From Acetobacter sicerae (lineage in GTDB: Bacteria > Pseudomonadota > Alphaproteobacteria > Acetobacterales > Acetobacteraceae): 64,000 nucleotides of DNA. This document shows, piece by piece, positions 6,628-52,339 of the stretch. A program made the position numbers and the translations under genes. The notes under the pieces were generated by a model. The model made no database searches. It was not told where the DNA came from and saw only the letters and a program-made list of their open reading frames with translations. The DNA lies in assembly GCF_011516765.1 (NCBI RefSeq), contig NZ_JAAABN010000013.1:1-64000 (forward strand), written 5' to 3'. Numbering within the stretch: position 1 is the stretch's first letter; each line of letters begins with the position of its first letter.

Positions 6628-7686
6628 ATGCGCGCCTCCGCTAACCCCTCCTCTTCCCTGTCCCACATGAAAAGACGCGGCGCCCCGTTCCGGATCGACG
6701 CCGACGAGCTCGACCGGATCGATGCGAAAGAGCGGGAGCAGGCGCAACGCAGCCTTTTCCGGCGTATCCGCGGCGTGAGCAGACTCCTCGCCATCACGGT
6801 ATGGGTTCCTCTCTCCGTCGGGTTCGAGGCTGTGCTTCTGCTTGTCCCCGGCAACGCCAAGATCCGCTGGACACGGGTGATCTGGGGCGTCCTGTGCCGA
6901 CTGCTGTCCCTGAAGATCAACGTCATCGGACGTCGGGCGGGCGGAGTCACGGGACCGAAGTCGCGGGTCCGCGGAGAGCGGCCGATCATCTACATCTCCA
7001 ACCATTCAAGCTGGATCGACGTGCCGGTTCTCGGCACCGTCCTGCCCTCCGTTTTTGTGGCCAAGGGCGACATCGAGCACTGGCCCATCATGGGGCTGAT
7101 TTCAAAGATCGGCCGCACCATTTTCGTCAGTCGCCAGCGCAACACGACAGGCCGCGAGCGTGATGAAATGACCTCCCGTCTGGCGAATGGCGACAATCTC
7201 GTGCTGTTTCCGGAAGGCACGTCCTCCGACGGATCACGCGTTCTTCCATTCATGTCGGCCTTTTTCGCCATTGCGAAGCCGCCCCGCCTGCGGGAGCCGG
7301 AAGCGTCCCAGATGCTCCCGGACTTTCCGCCCGGCATGACGCCTCTGATCCAGCCTGTGTCACTCGTCTATGACAGACTCGATGGATTTCGCATCGGCAA
7401 GGCCCGTCGCACCGTGTTTTCCTGGTATGGCGACATGGATCTCGGCCCTCACGTCTGGCAACTGGTGAAGCGGAAATCCATGCGCGCCACCGTGCTGCTG
7501 CACCCCCCTCTCGACCCCGATGATTTCCCGAGTCGGAAGGCGCTGGCGCAGGCGACATGGCGCGCCGTAACAAACGGCGCCGCCCGTCTCCGCCAGAATG
7601 ACGAGCCCGATCCGCCGGAATGGCAGGTGCGGCTCAGGGGACCGGCCAATTCATCACGGAACCGTGAAAACAAAAGGTTTTCTTGA
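6628..7686 (+). CDS. plsC: 1-acyl-sn-glycerol-3-phosphate acyltransferase
   Basis: PlsC transfers an acyl group to the sn-2 position of lysophosphatidate to make phosphatidate in membrane phospholipid synthesis. The 352-aa product carries a hydrophobic segment at about residues 52-75 and the catalytic HX4D box as NHSSWID (His126-Asp131). It also has the FPEGTSSDG substrate-binding motif near residue 194. Its N-terminus (about 45 residues, charged) and C-terminus (Asn/Arg-rich) extend beyond the core. The start has GGAGAGG a few bases upstream. It opens the cluster plsC-miaB-phoH-ybeY-corC, an arrangement known across Alphaproteobacteria, although a 235-base gap before miaB suggests that miaB has its own promoter. 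Confidence 0.93.
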   Translation: MRASANPSSSLSHMKRRGAPFRIDADELDRIDAKEREQAQRSLFRRIRGVSRLLAITVWVPLSVGFEAVLLLVPGNAKIRWTRVIWGVLCRLLSLKINVIGRRAGGVTGPKSRVRGERPIIYISNHSSWIDVPVLGTVLPSVFVAKGDIEHWPIMGLISKIGRTIFVSRQRNTTGRERDEMTSRLANGDNLVLFPEGTSSDGSRVLPFMSAFFAIAKPPRLREPEASQMLPDFPPGMTPLIQPVSLVYDRLDGFRIGKARRTVFSWYGDMDLGPHVWQLVKRKSMRATVLLHPPLDPDDFPSRKALAQATWRAVTNGAARLRQNDEPDPPEWQVRLRGPANSSRNRENKRFS

Positions 7687-7921
7687 CAAACCCTTTGTAT
7701 CTTTCGCCTGATGGGAACTGAAGGTCTGGCCAAGTCACATTGGTCGCAACCCCAGCGTGAAGAGAGGTCCATGGCTTGATTGCCTTTCGCACTTCTTCTG
7801 CTTCTTCGTCCTTTGCCTCCGGCGTCATGAGCTTCTGCCCTTGACCCGGACGCCCGCAATCAGGATTCCTCCCCTCCGTCGCACGGAATGGTCCGGCGGC
7901 GTGCCGGAACGAGCCTGAACT

Positions 7922-9307
7922 GTGACGACTGATCTCCCCACCCGCTCCAACACCCGTGGCCTGCATATGATCACGTGGGGTTGCCAGATGAACGTGTACG
8001 ATAGCGCCCGCATGACGGATGTCCTGCGCCCGCTTGGCTATGCGCCGGTGGATGACCCCGCGCAGGCGGACATGATCATTCTCAACACCTGTCATATCCG
8101 TGACCGCGCCGCCGAGAAGGTATTTTCCGAACTCGGGCGGCTGCGTCACATCAAGGAAGAGCGCAGCACGGAAGGCCGGCAGACCGTTCTGGCCGTGGCG
8201 GGCTGTGTCGCGCAGGCGGAAGGTGAGCAGATCCTCAAGCGCGCGCCCTATGTGGACATCGTGCTCGGACCGCAGACCTATCACCGCCTGCCGGAGATGG
8301 TGGCCCGCGCCGCTCGCGCCGGTGGGTCCGTGATCGACACGGACTTCCCTGCCGAGCAGAAGTTCGACTTTCTTCCTGATAGCGAAGCGCCCCAGACGGC
8401 AGGCAATGTCACAGCCTTCCTCACGGTGCAGGAGGGCTGTGACAAGTTCTGCTCGTTCTGCGTGGTGCCTTACACACGCGGTGCGGAAGCCAGCCGTCCC
8501 GTCGCCTCCGTTCTGGCGGAAGCGCGACGCATGGTCGCCAGCGGCGTGCGCGAGCTGACCCTGCTCGGGCAGAACGTCAACGCCTATCATGGCGAAGGTC
8601 CGGACGGCGGCACATGGAGCCTCGCCCGACTGGCTTATGCGCTGGCGGAGATTCCGGGACTGGAGCGTATCCGCTACATGACCTCCCACCCACGCGACAT
8701 GGGCGATGACCTGATCATGGCCCATCGTGATCTGCCCGCGCTGATGCCGTTCCTGCATCTGCCCGTGCAGGCGGGGTCGGATAAAATCCTCAAGGCGATG
8801 AACCGGGGACATACGGCGGACGAATATCGCCACCTTGTGGATCGTCTGCGGGCCGTGCGTCCGGATCTGGCCCTGTCCTCCGATTTCATCGTCGGGCATC
8901 CGGGTGAGACCGACGAGGACTTCGAGGCGACCATGCAGCTGATCCGCGATGTCGGGTTCGCGCTGGCCTACTCGTTCAAATACTCGATCCGGCCGGGAAC
9001 GCCTGCGGCAGGTGCGCCGTTGCAGGTAGCGGAAGCCGTCAAGGACGAGCGTCTTCAGGCATTGCAGGCGCTGCTGCGCGAACAACAGGATTCCTTCAAC
9101 GAGGCTGTTGTCGATGTCGTAGCCCCAGTGCTGTTTACAGGTCGGGGCCGCAAGCCGGGCCAGATGGTCGGCCGGTCCCCATGGCTTCAGCCGGTTCATG
9201 TCGATGGACCGGATGATCTGGTCGGCAGGACTCTTCCTGTCCTGATCACAGAACGACGCAGCAATTCGCTGGTCGGAACGCTTGTCGAGGAGTGTATGCC
9301 CGCTTGA
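7922..9307 (+). CDS. miaB: tRNA-2-methylthio-N6-dimethylallyladenosine synthase MiaB
   Basis: MiaB is a radical-SAM methylthiotransferase that adds the 2-methylthio group to i6A37 of tRNAs reading UNN codons. In this 461-aa version the auxiliary-cluster cysteines are Cys21 (TWGCQMN), Cys57 (NTCHIRDRA) and Cys95 (AGCVAQ). The radical-SAM triad CxxxCxxC is at Cys173, Cys177 and Cys180, and a TRAM-type tail ends the protein. The start is a GTG at 7922. A later ATG at 7967 would cut into the conserved first strand, so GTG is preferred although its ribosome site is weak. The next gene, phoH, follows after 68 bases. Confidence 0.95.
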
Positions 9308-9375
9308 CCCAGCCCATCGCACCCGGAACCTCCCAGCCCCGTCACAAGGGCTCCTCCCCTTCTCCAGCGAGGGAC

Positions 9376-10455
9376 ATGTCGCGCACGACAACCCTTCAGT
9401 TCGGAGATAACGCCCTTCTGGCGCAGCTGGTCGGTGATCACGACCGGCATCTGCGTCACATGGCGGAAGCTCTGGGAGTGCGCATTGCCTGCAAGGGCAA
9501 CCGGATTGCGATTGTAGGTGAACCGGGTCGCACGGCGCTCGCCCACTCCGCGCTGACGACCCTCTACCGCAAGCTGGAACGCGGCACGCCGATCAACACG
9601 GATGAGATCGACGCCGCCATCCGTCTCTCCGACATTCACGCCGCCCTGCGCGATCAGGTTCCCGGACAAGCACCGGAGGCTGCCACCGAAGTCGAGACGA
9701 AGCCGAGCAACGGTCCTCGGCTGATGATCAATGATCTCCCGGCCATCCGGACCCGCCGGGGCGCCATCGAGCCGCGCTCACCGGGTCAGGCCGCCTATAT
9801 GGAGATGCTGGCCCGCAACGAGATGGTGTTCGGTGTCGGCCCTGCCGGAACCGGCAAGACATATCTTGCGGTCGCGCAGGCAGTCGCCATGTTGCAGTCC
9901 GGTCAGGTGGACCGGATCATCCTGTCACGGCCCGCTGTCGAAGCGGGTGAGCGGCTGGGCTTCCTGCCCGGCGACCTGAAAGAAAAGATCGACCCCTATC
10001 TGCGCCCGCTCTACGACGCGCTGCATGACATGATGCCCGGCGATCAGGTGACCCGGCGCATGGCGACCGGCGATATCGAGGTCGCGCCCCTCGCCTTCAT
10101 GCGTGGCCGCACGCTGGCCCATGCCTATGTGATTCTCGATGAGGCGCAGAACACGACGCCCGCGCAGATGAAGATGTTCCTGACCCGTATGGGTAATGGC
10201 ACACGCATGGTCGTGACTGGTGATCTCAGTCAGGTTGATCTGCCGTCCGGCACGACTTCCGGCCTGCAGGACGCGCTCGATACGCTGGAAGGCGTGCAGG
10301 GTATCGCCATCAATCGCTTTGACGCGAGAGACGTTGTGCGGCACAGACTGGTCGCGCGCATTGTTGATGCGTATGATGACAAGAAGACGGTGGAACGGGA
10401 GACCTCCCGCAACCAGAGATTCCGCCGGGAGCACAATGGAACCGCCAAGTACTGA
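9376..10455 (+). CDS. phoH: PhoH-family ATPase
   Basis: This is a PhoH-like P-loop NTPase (YbeZ type). Relatives partner the YbeY endoribonuclease in RNA metabolism. The 359-aa product has an N-terminal KH-like region (about residues 1-100). The PhoH ATPase core follows, with Walker A GPAGTGKT at 155-162 and Walker [10 protein letters not shown] near residue 256. The frame is open from 9292, inside miaB, but conservation starts at MSRTTTLQF and a GAGG lies close before the ATG at 9376, so I use that start. Its 3' end overlaps the ybeY start by 20 bases, implying coupled translation of partner proteins. Confidence 0.93.
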
Positions 10456-11029
10456 CAGCTGCGCTCTCCAGAGCGCGGCAGACGGCGAGCCCTCCCCTTT
10501 CGGGGCCGGGCTCTTCCCCTTCCCTCCCACCCAGTGGGAGGAGGACACCGGAACAGATGACAATGGTCCCGAGATCATTGTCGAGGACACGGGGTGGCGG
10601 GCTGCCGTCCCCCATGTAGAGCGTCTGGTGCGACGCGCCAGCGACGCCAGTCTCGTCTGGATGGAGCGCCGTTTTTCCGGAGTAGCCCTTGTGCTTCCGG
10701 AAACGATCGTCCTGTCCTCGGACAGGGTCGTGAAGAAGCTCAATGCGCGTCATCGCGGCCGCAACAAGCCGACCAATGTCCTGACATTCGAGCCGCCGCC
10801 CGGTTATCCCGGTGGTGAAATCATCCTTGCTCTGGGTGTTGTGTGCAGGGAAGCCAAGGCTGCCAGAAAACCTGTTGCGCATCATCTGGCGCATCTGATC
10901 GCGCACGGTGTCCTTCATCTCAGCGGGCATGATCACCATGAAGCCGGAGATGCGCGACGCATGGAGATGGAGGAAGCCCGCGTTCTGGCAATGATGGGCC
11001 TTCCCAACCCGTGGAAATCCCGGACATGA
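10436..11029 (+). CDS. ybeY: Endoribonuclease YbeY with unusual N-terminal extension
   Basis: YbeY is a zinc-dependent endoribonuclease needed for 16S rRNA 3'-end maturation and ribosome quality control. The metal motif [11 protein letters not shown] gives ligands His157, His161 and His167. The conserved domain begins only near residue 46 ([10 protein letters not shown]); the first 45 residues are Pro/Gly/Ser-rich and are encoded by a stretch holding three consecutive hairpins. The ATG at 10436 has GGGAG five bases upstream and is the only ordinary start I see in frame before the domain. The stop forms an ATGA overlap with corC. An alternative is that translation really begins beyond the hairpins at a non-standard codon. 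Confidence 0.92.
10461..10541 (+). repeat. Three consecutive hairpins at the phoH/ybeY junction
   Basis: Three inverted repeats lie back to back. The first is GCGCTCT/AGAGCGC (10461-10476, 2-base loop). The second is GAGCCC/GGGCTC with an inner CCCC/GGGG (10487-10513). The third is CCTCCCAC/GTGGGAGG (10523-10541, 3-base loop). They begin six bases after the phoH stop codon and fall within the poorly conserved first 45 codons of ybeY. The array could act as an RNA-processing or stability element between cistrons, or be a repeat insertion that became translated. Confidence 0.6.
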
Positions 11030-11955
11030 GCGACACAGACCATTCCAACGGCGTGAACGGGTCGCAGAAGACCCGAAAAGGGCTGTTTTCCCTTTTCGGC
11101 CGAAAGAAAGAACAGGGCGTCCGGCACTCCATTGCCGCACTGGTGCAGGAAGCGGCTGATGCTGGCGAAGGCGGTGATGAAGCGCCTGAACTGGACCGTC
11201 AGGAACGGGCGCTGATCGCCAATGTGCTGCGCCTGCGCGAAACCAGCGCTGATGACGTGATGGTGCCGCGCGCGGACATTGTGGCGATGCCCGTCGATAT
11301 CAGTCTCGACGACGCACTGGCGATGATGCGGCGTGAGAACCACTCGCGTATGCCGGTCTATCGCGGGCAGCTCGACGATATTGTCGGCATGATCCACGTG
11401 AAGGATCTGATCGCCTATGTCGGCACGAGTGAGGCGTTCAATCTTGAAACGCTGCTACGTCAGCCGCTGATGATCGCGCCGCAGATGCCGGTGCTTGATC
11501 TGTTGCTGATGATGCGGCAACGACAGGTCCATCTGGCGCTTGTGATCGACGAGTATGGCGGGATCGATGGCGTTGTCACTATTGAAGATCTGGTCGAAAC
11601 GATTGTCGGAGACATTTCCGACGAACATGACGAACCCACGGTCGCGTTGATTGTCGAACGGCCTGACGGCTCTTTTGACGTGGACGCCCGTTGCCCGGTG
11701 GAGACGTTCGAGGAACAGATCGGCCCGATCCTGACGGAAACCGAGCGGGAAGCGGAGATCGAAACCATTGGTGGTCTGGTCTTCCGGCTTGCAGGTCATG
11801 TTCCGACACGCGGTGAAGTTTTCAACCATGAAAGCGGTTTCGTTTTCCGCGTTCTGGATGCTGACGCCCGTCATATCCGCAAGGTTCGCGTCAGAAAACC
11901 GGCTGAAATTCAGACGCCTTCCGCCAGCACGGGAGCAGGCAGCAGCGAAAGCTGA
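11026..11955 (+). CDS. corC: CBS-domain transporter-associated protein, CorC/HlyC family
   Basis: This is a cytosolic CBS-pair protein of the CorC/HlyC family, implicated in magnesium and cobalt efflux or metal homeostasis. The 309-aa product has a charged N-terminus and a tandem CBS region at about residues 65-190 ([27 protein letters not shown]). A CorC/HlyC C-terminal domain lies at about 205-290 ([16 protein letters not shown]). The ATG at 11026 overlaps the ybeY stop as ATGA; a GTG at 11011 is less likely. In many Alphaproteobacteria lnt (apolipoprotein N-acyltransferase) comes next. Here the operon ends instead with a hairpin and a convergent lipoprotein gene. Confidence 0.93.
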
Positions 11956-11968
11956 CACAGGAAACGCA

Positions 11969-12025
11969 GGGACGGACGAGAACCTCATCAAGAGGCTTTC
12001 ATCCGTCCCCGCAGGATTTCTTTTT
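11969..12025 (+). terminator. Probable terminator of the plsC-corC cluster
   Basis: An 8-base perfect stem GGGACGGA/TCCGTCCC (11969-11976 with 12002-12009, loop 25 bases) is followed after eight bases by the T-rich run TTTCTTTTT. It starts 13 bases after the corC stop. The long loop makes it less than textbook. Confidence 0.5.
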
Positions 12026-12051
12026 CCGAAAGCTGATGCCTTCAGGCTTCC

Positions 12052-12714
12052 TCAATACAGGAGGTAGCCGCTGATTTCCGCTTCGGGCTCAAGGTAATAC
12101 GGCACGAAAAATTCCGGATACCCCTCGGAATAGACATGATCAATGCCGCTGGGGGGCACCGCTGGTTTTACACCATGACTGGCGAGGCAACTGTAGAGCG
12201 TGCTGCGAAGCTGGTCGGAAGACAGTCCCGTCTGCTTCGTTCCCTGAAACAGATCTTCCGCATAAGGCATGCAGGGAGCAGGCGTATGGGCCAGCTTGTT
12301 TGCAATCTGCTTTTTCTTGTAGGCCGCGATATCGGCGTCAGACGCCCAGATTTTCAGCGTATTTGGTGAGGAAGGCTGGAACCACAGATCTCGCCAGCCG
12401 ATAGGCCCACCGTGGAAACGCGTTACGGCGATACCCGGCTCTTTCGTGCCATCTGCCCGCACGAGAGTGCCGTGGCACGCCAGAACCTGATAATGAGAGC
12501 CGAAGAGATGCCCTTTGATGGCGCCATCGGTAAAGGCCGTTGCCGGACTTGCCGGTTTGTTGGTCACTACATCAGGCATTGCTGTTGGCGCATTGGCAAT
12601 CGCGACGATTGACTGGTCCACTGCCGGTTCAGCGCAATAATTCTTCAGCGGGTCAACGGTATAGGAACATCCGGCCAGAAAGACGGTCAGAACAACGGGA
12701 ATATAAGATTTCAT
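12052..12714 (-). CDS. Hypothetical lipoprotein
   Basis: I do not recognise the family. The 220-aa product begins with a short basic start and a hydrophobic core ending in a lipobox (FLAGC, Cys16), so it is predicted to be lipidated and exported. The mature part has several cysteines (NYCAEP, LACHG, APCMPY, YSCLASHG) that could form disulfides in the periplasm. A Trp/Pro-rich middle follows, and the C-terminus is tyrosine-rich and ends GYLLY. The ribosome site is weak. It is convergent with corC and stands alone. The clear signal peptide and coherent composition support a real gene. Confidence 0.8.
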   Translation of the reverse strand: MKSYIPVVLTVFLAGCSYTVDPLKNYCAEPAVDQSIVAIANAPTAMPDVVTNKPASPATAFTDGAIKGHLFGSHYQVLACHGTLVRADGTKEPGIAVTRFHGGPIGWRDLWFQPSSPNTLKIWASDADIAAYKKKQIANKLAHTPAPCMPYAEDLFQGTKQTGLSSDQLRSTLYSCLASHGVKPAVPPSGIDHVYSEGYPEFFVPYYLEPEAEISGYLLY

Positions 12715-12852
12715 CGGTTTGACTCGCGGAAATATCCCTGTCAGGCCACAGGAGAAACCCCGCCGCCTTTTGACTGCGAGGCGATAAAAACCTGTTTCTG
12801 CCTAACCTTCGGTTTCCCACTGGTCAATCACTCACAGTGTGAAGGGAGCCAT

Positions 12853-13230
12853 TCATTCTCCGGCAAGCTCCCGGAACCGCGCGAAATCCGGCTGCCCGTC
12901 AAACAGGAACAGCATGTAATAATCAAGGTAATGCCGCCGGTTGCGCGCCACCTTCGTATAAAAGGGATAGACATCAAACGGACCCAGCATGTCTTCCGGA
13001 TGAGGTTCACTCTCCAGAATACATCTTGCCCTGAACAACGGGGCGTAGGTGGCGGAATTCTCCGCGTCACGTCTGCGCACGTGATAAAGATTCTTTCGAA
13101 AATGCCTCAACCTGTCAGGAAGGATGAACACAATGCCTTTTTCGATGAAGGGGCGAGGCAGATCCTCGGCCCTCATATAACGCAGGCTTTCCGGCATATC
13201 GCAGAACCAGGGATGATCCTGAACGATCAC
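12853..13230 (-). CDS. Small hypothetical protein
   Basis: This frame encodes 125 aa from a GTG start with GGGATGAAAC just in front. The product is rich in Tyr, Phe, Arg and Asp (for example YPFYTKVARNRRHYLDYYM), with a soluble-protein composition and no signal peptide or membrane segment. I recognise no family. Its support is the length, the ribosome site and the absence of a competing frame on the other strand. It lies upstream of the lipoprotein gene on the same strand, 138 bases away. Confidence 0.5.
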   Translation of the reverse strand: MIVQDHPWFCDMPESLRYMRAEDLPRPFIEKGIVFILPDRLRHFRKNLYHVRRRDAENSATYAPLFRARCILESEPHPEDMLGPFDVYPFYTKVARNRRHYLDYYMLFLFDGQPDFARFRELAGE

Positions 13231-13507
13231 GTTTCATCCCCGGTCATTAGAACACAAGTCATATGTTAGGTAACGCATGCGGCGTAATCCAATATCCATA
13301 AAATCTGACAAAGCATAGGGTGTCGTGACAGATAAGCCGAACCTGCCCTGAAACATAATACGAGTTCACTTCGCTTACAGAAGACGGGGCAGCCATCGTC
13401 TATTTTACGGACAGTTGCATCCCCTAAAAGCGGCTTGATCTCAACCTTTATGAGACGGCCCCATAACTGCACGGTAGATGATTATACCCGGTAGGACTCT
13501 CCGTGCA

Positions 13508-14089
13508 TTACGATGCCGAGGTTCGTGATCCGGCGATGAGAATGTCCACAAGGCGCTTCGCACTGTTCTCCCAGCCCGGACCGGCCGAATAGTTCGAAAC
13601 ACCCGCCAGAGCCCTGAGCAGATCGATTGGCTCGACGTCATTACGCATGTCGCCGCTCGCGACTGCGGTCGTCATAAGCTGGTCGATTGCGTTCTGGAGA
13701 ACCGTGCTGGAGTGGGCATAAAGTGCGCTCGTTCCTCCAACCAGCCCATTGAGGGCAGGAGCGATCATCTGCTTGGCGGCTATATAATCCACAAACAACC
13801 GCATCCATGCCCGCAGGGCTTCCACCGGCGGATGCTGCGCGGCAAGGGCCGGCACAGCCTCGGCAAGACGGTCCAGTTCAATCCGATAAACCGCCTCGAT
13901 CAGCGCATCGCGATTGGGAAAGTGACGGTAAAGCGTTCCGATCCCCACCCCTGCACGACGGGCAATTTCATCCAGCGCGATATCGACTTCCCCCGCAGTG
14001 AACGCTGTCCTGGCCACTGTCAGCAGGTTTTCCCTGTTGCGTTGCCCATCGCTGCGCGGCCGGCGGGGCGGCTTTTTTTCGTCGGTCAC
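13508..14089 (-). CDS. TetR-family transcriptional regulator
   Basis: This is a repressor of the TetR family, 193 aa. The N-terminal helix-turn-helix covers about residues 20-65 (IALDEIARRAGVGIGTLYRHFPNRDALIEAVY), followed by a helical ligand-binding domain with a SBP/TetR_C-like pattern. The frame is open upstream, but the GTG at 14089 has GAGGG seven bases before it and fits the usual N-terminal length, so it is taken as the start. The gene diverges from the SDR gene at 14209, and the 119 bases between hold two copies of a 17-base palindrome-like motif. Control of both genes by this repressor is the natural inference. Confidence 0.92.
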   Translation of the reverse strand: MTDEKKPPRRPRSDGQRNRENLLTVARTAFTAGEVDIALDEIARRAGVGIGTLYRHFPNRDALIEAVYRIELDRLAEAVPALAAQHPPVEALRAWMRLFVDYIAAKQMIAPALNGLVGGTSALYAHSSTVLQNAIDQLMTTAVASGDMRNDVEPIDLLRALAGVSNYSAGPGWENSAKRLVDILIAGSRTSAS

Positions 14090-52224: not shown

Positions 52225-52290
52225 TCTTCCTGCATCGCTGCAGCGGGTCATGATTCCGTGATCTGACTGTGTTTTTTACAGGAACCGGAG

Positions 52291-52320
52291 ACCGGCGTTG
52301 CCATGCAGCGCCGGTTTTCT
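52291..52320 (+). terminator. Intrinsic terminator of the levansucrase gene
   Basis: ACCGGCG (52291-52297) pairs with CGCCGGT (52309-52315) across an 11-base loop, followed by TTTCT. It lies 67 bases after the stop codon. Confidence 0.8.
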
Positions 52321-52339
52321 GGTGTCTGTTGAATCCTGA

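Follow-up and report, generated by a model that had tools for sequence, protein, structure and literature searches.

Where does YbeY begin in Acetobacter sicerae, and what is the run of inverted repeats that separates the end of phoH from the conserved part of ybeY? A preliminary description of this locus posed the matter as a choice: either YbeY carries a leader encoded by a repeat-like element, or translation starts later, at an unusual codon, and the hairpins form a non-coding element between the two genes. Our analysis of the window (the whole stretch of 64,000 nucleotides) and of related loci leaves a translated leader and an RNA element both standing; what falls is their mutual exclusion, as both halves look true. 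The leader is very probably translated and constrained as RNA at the same time.

Architecture of the phoH–ybeY junction

A MiaB-like ORF (recognised by eye), phoH and ybeY follow one another on the + strand. phoH, which encodes a PhoH-like ATPase (PF02562, E = 3e-93), occupies positions 9292–10455, 9292 being only the start of the longest ORF. Its stop codon, TGA at 10453–10455, is located inside the ybeY frame: ybeY (10436–11029, + strand) starts 20 nt within phoH and encodes a protein of 197 amino acids that matches PF02130 (E = 4.3e-21; 75.6 bits against a curated cut-off of 25) and TIGR00043 (E = 5.5e-24; 84.5 bits against 45). The ybeY ATG is preceded by a Shine-Dalgarno-like GGGAG at 10427–10431 on the + strand (read from the sequence). 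The YbeY core can be aligned to relatives from residue 46 (10571), which bears out the N-terminal extension of 45 residues described earlier; its codons (10436–10570, + strand) begin with MEPP, and the remainder evolves fast.

From the ATG at 10436, the next ordinary in-frame start is the GTG at 10628 (residue 65). The ATG had been called the only ordinary ybeY start, in front of the hairpins; no other follows it until that GTG, but further in-frame ATGs are found upstream, within phoH, at 10367, 10373 and 10376. These upstream ATGs are not kept: in 5 of 45 loci of the genus, the open frame holds no ordinary start before the ATG that overlaps phoH.

The leader is most likely translated

Counted from the end of the phoH stop codon, 45 of 48 loci of the same genus (window included) have an overlapping ATG in the ybeY frame at −13 to −22. 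Each of these 45 begins with MEP and then P or R, and each carries GGGAG or AGGAG within the 12 nt before the ATG. The other three fall outside this count, as well as those of hairpin position and start accessibility: L051 and L052 have no PhoH match in the stretch, and the YbeY match of L050 is broken. L051, though it lacks the PhoH match, has an in-frame MEPP start. In L050, from a draft Acetobacter genome, the YbeY match is split over two frames near the border between extension and core (about 840–960), probably through an assembly or sequencing error.

The distance from the phoH stop to the core takes eight values between 55 and 118 nt, all of them 1 mod 3, in 45 of 46 loci; insertions and deletions therefore came as whole codons. 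Between the overlapping ATG and the core, 10 of 45 loci, the window among them, have no ordinary start. Since the ATG, the Shine-Dalgarno sequence and the MEP(P/R) start are kept in 45 of the 48 loci, translation most likely begins at the ATG at 10436 and includes the leader. A late, non-canonical start with non-coding hairpins, the second arm of the original choice, is very unlikely, given that both the frame and the overlapping ATG are conserved.

Beyond MEP(P/R), the leader drifts in sequence and in length (26–45 amino acids), and AlphaFold models residues 1–41 as disordered (pLDDT <50; eight sequences).

A row of hairpins within the first ybeY codons

Three strong inverted repeats had been reported directly after the phoH stop, and all three are present there; together they cover 84 bases (10458–10541) rather than the 81 given. 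Hairpin 1 (10458–10479, + strand) is formed by an inverted repeat at 10458–10467/10470–10479, with stem arms at 10458–10466/10471–10479; counted from the A of the ybeY ATG its base lies at +23, and counted from the phoH stop at +3. Hairpin 2 (10487–10513, + strand; repeat 10487–10497/10503–10513) has two stems, 10487–10492/10508–10513 and 10494–10497/10502–10505, and is followed by a pyrimidine-rich stretch without a U-tract. Hairpin 3 (10523–10541, + strand) pairs CCTCCCAC with GTGGGAGG in an inverted repeat at 10523–10530/10534–10541. A further hairpin, hairpin 4 (10559–10582, + strand; repeat 10559–10568/10573–10582), extends into the first core codons; it is predicted in the nearest relatives (the L004 fold lacks it) and in L007–L011, and was not seen in the folds of the remaining groups, which were read by eye.

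Two out-of-frame ATGs, at 10557 and 10563, trail a GGAGGAGG-like stretch (formed by the 3′ arm of hairpin 3) and would open a frame of about 20 codons (10557–10619). This frame is probably not a gene, because L002 and L003 lack the ATG at 10557 and L004 lacks the one at 10563.

The segment 10456–10545 has a minimum free energy (MFE) of −54.5 kcal/mol (z = −4.2), and none of 200 dinucleotide shuffles was as stable. It is the strongest fold of the 64 kb: none of the 6,391 segments of 90 nt per strand (step 10) was as stable. The next strongest 90-nt folds of the + strand are found at 8381–8470 (−50.4 kcal/mol) and 52241–52330 (−49.7 kcal/mol). Gene starts were compared using 295 crudely called starts, 47 in the window (ybeY included) and 248 from a 300-kb stretch of another contig in this genome. 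No other of the 295 reaches so low an MFE downstream of its start, and ybeY ranks second in hairpin score at +18 to +27; of 59 close tandem pairs, phoH–ybeY among them, this junction has the strongest hairpin behind the stop of the first gene. The sole start that scores above ybeY at +18 to +27 (27 versus 24) is located at about 2405 (+) of L111.

In the predicted fold of 10430–10600, the ybeY AUG is unpaired and outside the hairpins. Opening the start region is calculated to cost 11.4 kcal/mol in the window, about equal to synonymous versions, so that this region is predicted to pair in part with sequence before or after it. Across loci, the ybeY start is slightly more accessible than under synonymous resampling (median z −0.32; below 0 in 31 of 45 loci), too weak a signal for protection of the start from mispairing to be retained as an explanation.

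Hairpin position across the genus

Folding of the extension was compared with synonymous resampling, local background and GC content; loci with too short an extension or without a PhoH match are excluded from the counts for hairpins next to the stop, for terminators and for total energy. In 28 of 45 loci, at most 5 of 100 synonymous versions reached the folding energy of the natural sequence (0 of 100 in the window; median z −2.06), and the GC-adjusted folding z is below −1.64 in 24 of 46. Compared with stretches of equal length from its own locus, total folding energy falls in the lowest 5% for only 13 of 46 loci, and we discarded it as a weak genus-wide signal. In 34 of 46 loci, a hairpin that starts no more than 12 nt from the phoH stop ranks in the top 5% of the local background, and in 27 of 46 it beats synonymous resampling at 0.05; the gap-free score used here is blind to bulged stems, which some of the misses have. 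A covariance model of hairpins 1–3 built from the six sequences of the window's closest group recovered the same spot in 10 of the 42 other loci of the genus (E < 0.03); on iteration of the model, the palindromes matched the opposite strand too, and the iterated version was discarded for that reason.

In 38 of 45 loci, hairpin 1 has its base at +22 or +23 relative to the A of the ybeY AUG (range over the loci 19–26); relative to the phoH stop, the base lies at +2 to +9. In loci with a displaced phoH stop, the spacing between AUG and hairpin 1 stays at +23 in L016 and in the group of the window, and is +26 in L014. This constancy may simply mean that nothing was inserted there. The footprint of an initiating ribosome reaches to about +15 to +19, which puts the base of hairpin 1 just outside it.

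Stems are kept while amino acids drift

The preliminary description had proposed to compare the junction among relatives, and took conserved amino acids with unconserved stems as the pattern that would speak against it. The comparison gave the reverse: the stems are held, with compensatory changes in hairpin 1 of one subgroup, and the amino acids drift. In the six closest sequences, pN/pS is 0.60 for the codons after the phoH stop and 0.16 for the 30 codons that open the core.

The clearest case is a group of loci with a leader of 36 residues (19 loci, 18 of them distinct), which are of equal length and were aligned without gaps and without reference to structure. In hairpin 1 of this group, 94.4% of cells are paired, versus 29–42% when the partners are slid, a control in which hairpin 1 is favoured because its stem was chosen from folds of these same sequences. 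Double-sided changes are observed in 7 of 10 pairs (18 sequences), and four of five measures beat almost all shuffles. The fifth, the count of further pair types, does not exceed the shuffles (11 versus 11.1). On a tree of the flanking sequence, seven double changes from one pair to another fall on single branches, versus 0 or 1 for each of 12 slides, and none of 5,000 permuted pairings matched this covariation.

In this group, most pairs of hairpin 1 match a third codon position in one arm with a first codon position in the opposite arm, so that a Val/Met swap tracks a silent change in a His codon. Val/Met, Asp/Asn and Ala/Thr changes all accompany silent changes in the opposite arm, a pattern for which coevolution within the protein would not readily account.

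In the six-sequence group of the window and in a group of seven sequences, double-sided changes are near shuffle level, because few pairs vary; the case from covariation thus rests on the 36-residue group. Compensatory changes in excess of what relatedness and column composition would give, as expected of a cis-acting structured RNA, are found in hairpin 1 of the 36-residue group and not in the two smaller groups. For hairpin 2, the case for RNA lies in suppression of synonymous change rather than in covariation: all 10 pairs are invariant in the six-sequence group, and pS is 0.109, versus 0.451 in the core and 0.389 in phoH, the latter compared by distance from the stop without realignment, so that any indel may inflate it. 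Hairpin 3 has 95.8% of cells paired in the six close sequences and no double-sided change.

Over the three alignments, G.U exceeds A.C (48 versus 14 cells; 19 versus 9 distinct pair types), and in the 36-residue group alone the cells number 14 versus 8, with four pair types each; these cells are not independent. The excess of G.U favours the RNA of the ybeY strand as the selected molecule. Together, the comparisons support the view that selection keeps a series of hairpins in the ybeY codons that follow the phoH stop, while the amino acids these codons specify drift.

Distribution of the element

A scan for close relatives of this YbeY returned 11 named records, all 11 from Acetobacter (A. conturbans, A. 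fallax, A. oeni, A. musti, A. syzygii, A. fabarum and others). The overlapping ATG is also common among the other genera of the family. Together with a first predicted hairpin, it occurs in 25 of 40 fetched loci; that hairpin lies at +18 to +24 in 16 of these 25 usable loci. A hairpin adjacent to the stop beats synonymous resampling at 0.05 in only 8 of 36 loci tested (L050, which is of the same genus, is excluded from this count). GC-rich sequence nearly always folds somehow, and we regard a family-wide hairpin at the same place as only partly borne out. L089 and L090 have neither extension nor overlapping start. In other families, a PhoH match lies upstream of the YbeY match in 17 of 20 fetched loci, and folds read by eye gave no consistent hairpin after the phoH stop. 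One of the loci from another family, L138, in which the PhoH match is far upstream, has a strong A+T-rich palindrome after the stop of the PhoH-matching ORF, with the projected YbeY core 713 nt further on.

The repeat-like element proposed in the preliminary description did not turn up a second time in the genome by either BLAST or covariance model. BLAST with the element found itself and three matches of 16–26 bases at E = 0.58, and the covariance search gave the element at 3.1e-24 and the next two hits at E of about 3 (150 of 867 candidates scored). With one copy found in a genome of 4.03 Mb, a dispersed palindromic repeat of the REP or RPE type, or a mobile palindrome, is rejected. Like the Rickettsia palindromic elements, the ybeY palindromes appear as part of a protein; the Rickettsia elements are dispersed repeats, whereas the ybeY element was found as a single copy and covaries at one locus across species.

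A search of 9200–11400 against Rfam to E = 10 gave seven matches, none at its gathering score; the single match that overlaps the element is Pab91, at 19.1 bits versus a gathering score of 71. No paper was found on YbeY together with PhoH in Acetobacter. Titles and abstract openings on overlap in the ybeZ/ybeY operon and on an N-terminal extension of YbeY contained no description of the element, nor did those among the matches listed for conserved RNA motifs of alphaproteobacteria. Neither phoH nor ybeY occurs as a word in the main text of PMC5756330 or PMC6191907, two transcriptome papers on Gluconobacter oxydans.

A model for the ybeY start

As far as sequence comparison can indicate, the element would most likely act in cis on the mRNA and set ybeY translation relative to phoH. 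That the start of ybeY serves two purposes, as protein code and as a cis-acting mRNA element at the phoH–ybeY junction, seems to us to have an about even chance of being right; that the hairpins act at translation, rather than at transcription or mRNA decay, we put a little short of even.

In the model, the hairpins would act in cis at the junction, where hairpin 1 would meet both ribosomes that finish phoH and ribosomes in the first few ybeY codons. The most likely effect would be a weaker carry-over of terminating phoH ribosomes and a slower early elongation of ybeY. Because its base lies beyond the initiation footprint (+22/+23), hairpin 1 need not block initiation from the Shine-Dalgarno sequence of ybeY; ybeY would start on this site of its own, shielded from phoH ribosomes and with slow first codons. 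YbeY output would be set separately from PhoH, in a direction that is uncertain.

The junction resembles translational coupling of overlapping genes in its same-strand overlap of stop and start and in the RNA structure located there. A review (PMC12548453) reports that, in a random library, the efficiency of coupling correlates negatively with predicted structure directly behind the upstream stop. The same review describes the usual 'RNA unfolding' type of coupling, in which structure hides the downstream ribosome site (PMC12548453); unlike in that type, the ybeY hairpins begin 19–26 nt past the AUG and would probably not hold the start site.

Alternatively, the hairpins may serve mRNA processing or segmental stability: they would shield the 3′ end of (miaB-)phoH from exonucleases or be cut by RNase III or RNase E, and the two halves of the operon would decay differently. 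The hairpins begin right after the phoH stop, and the structure is kept while loop and stem sequences vary between groups, which fits a physical barrier. Intercistronic puf hairpins in Rhodobacter, the textbook stabilising case, likewise follow directly on the upstream stop, with structure kept more than sequence. The ybeY hairpins, however, are part of the translated sequence of the downstream gene, so that passing ribosomes would unfold them, and hairpin 1 would begin within the expected footprint of a ribosome terminating phoH; we hold this explanation to be possible but unlikely. Transcription attenuation would make hairpin 2 a leaky terminator or pause site, active when no ribosomes follow closely, and would so tie ybeY and the genes behind it to translation. 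A hairpin with a T-rich tail does occur somewhere in the extension in 22 of 46 loci, versus 12.5 expected from synonymous resampling, and some of these, L026 and L037 among them, resemble real terminators. Yet 24 of the 46 loci lack one. The window is without it; of the four relatives closest to the window, L002, L003 and L004 are without it too and L005 has a weak one, and no U-tract is conserved after the hairpins among loci of the genus. For the window itself, an intrinsic terminator is rejected, as hairpin 2 has no U-tract behind it and a scan of 7500–14000 found no terminator at the element. Attenuation is doubtful.

YbeY is itself an RNase, and the hairpins could be an operator on its own message, bound or cut by YbeY alone or with RNase III or ribosomal proteins. 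The RNase genes rne, rnc and pnp control their own messages through 5′ hairpins, and the only copy of the element found in the genome is at ybeY, likewise at the 5′ end of an RNase gene. The rne, rnc and pnp hairpins belong to untranslated leaders and their regulation is demonstrated, whereas the ybeY hairpins are putative regulators. The folds, read by eye, share no loop or stem sequence that would provide specificity, there is no known YbeY site for comparison, and ybeY autoregulation is not described in the titles and abstract openings of papers matching YbeY, autoregulation and hairpins, PMC8625941 among them; such autoregulation would be quite improbable. At the other extreme, the hairpins may have no function as RNA, GC-rich coding sequence folding by chance and the covariation being coincidental. 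The modest showing of total folding energy (outstanding in 13 of 46 loci only) and the scarcity of covariation in two of three alignments would be in keeping with this. Chance folding would leave aside the tree covariation that 0 of 5,000 permuted pairings match, the suppressed synonymous change in hairpin 2 and the recovery of the same spot by the covariance model in 10 of 42 other loci, and we judge it very improbable.

Implications for YbeY in acetic acid bacteria

To return to the preferred reading, a cis-acting element that sets ybeY translation, the locus appears to place an RNA control element within the coding start of a ribosome-maturation RNase, with compensatory mutations that go against the amino-acid sequence. 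A further step, which we regard as speculative and rather unlikely, is that the disordered YbeY leader is a translated operator, gained to accommodate an RNA switch at a fixed spacing from the start codon; if so, YbeY, RNase III or the state of the ribosome would set the dose of an rRNA-maturing RNase. The element would offer a simple system in which to test how a hairpin located just beyond the footprint of the ribosome tunes a downstream overlapping gene. It also advises against treating the YbeY leader as a protein domain, and it would account for the long and variable YbeY leader in acetic acid bacteria.
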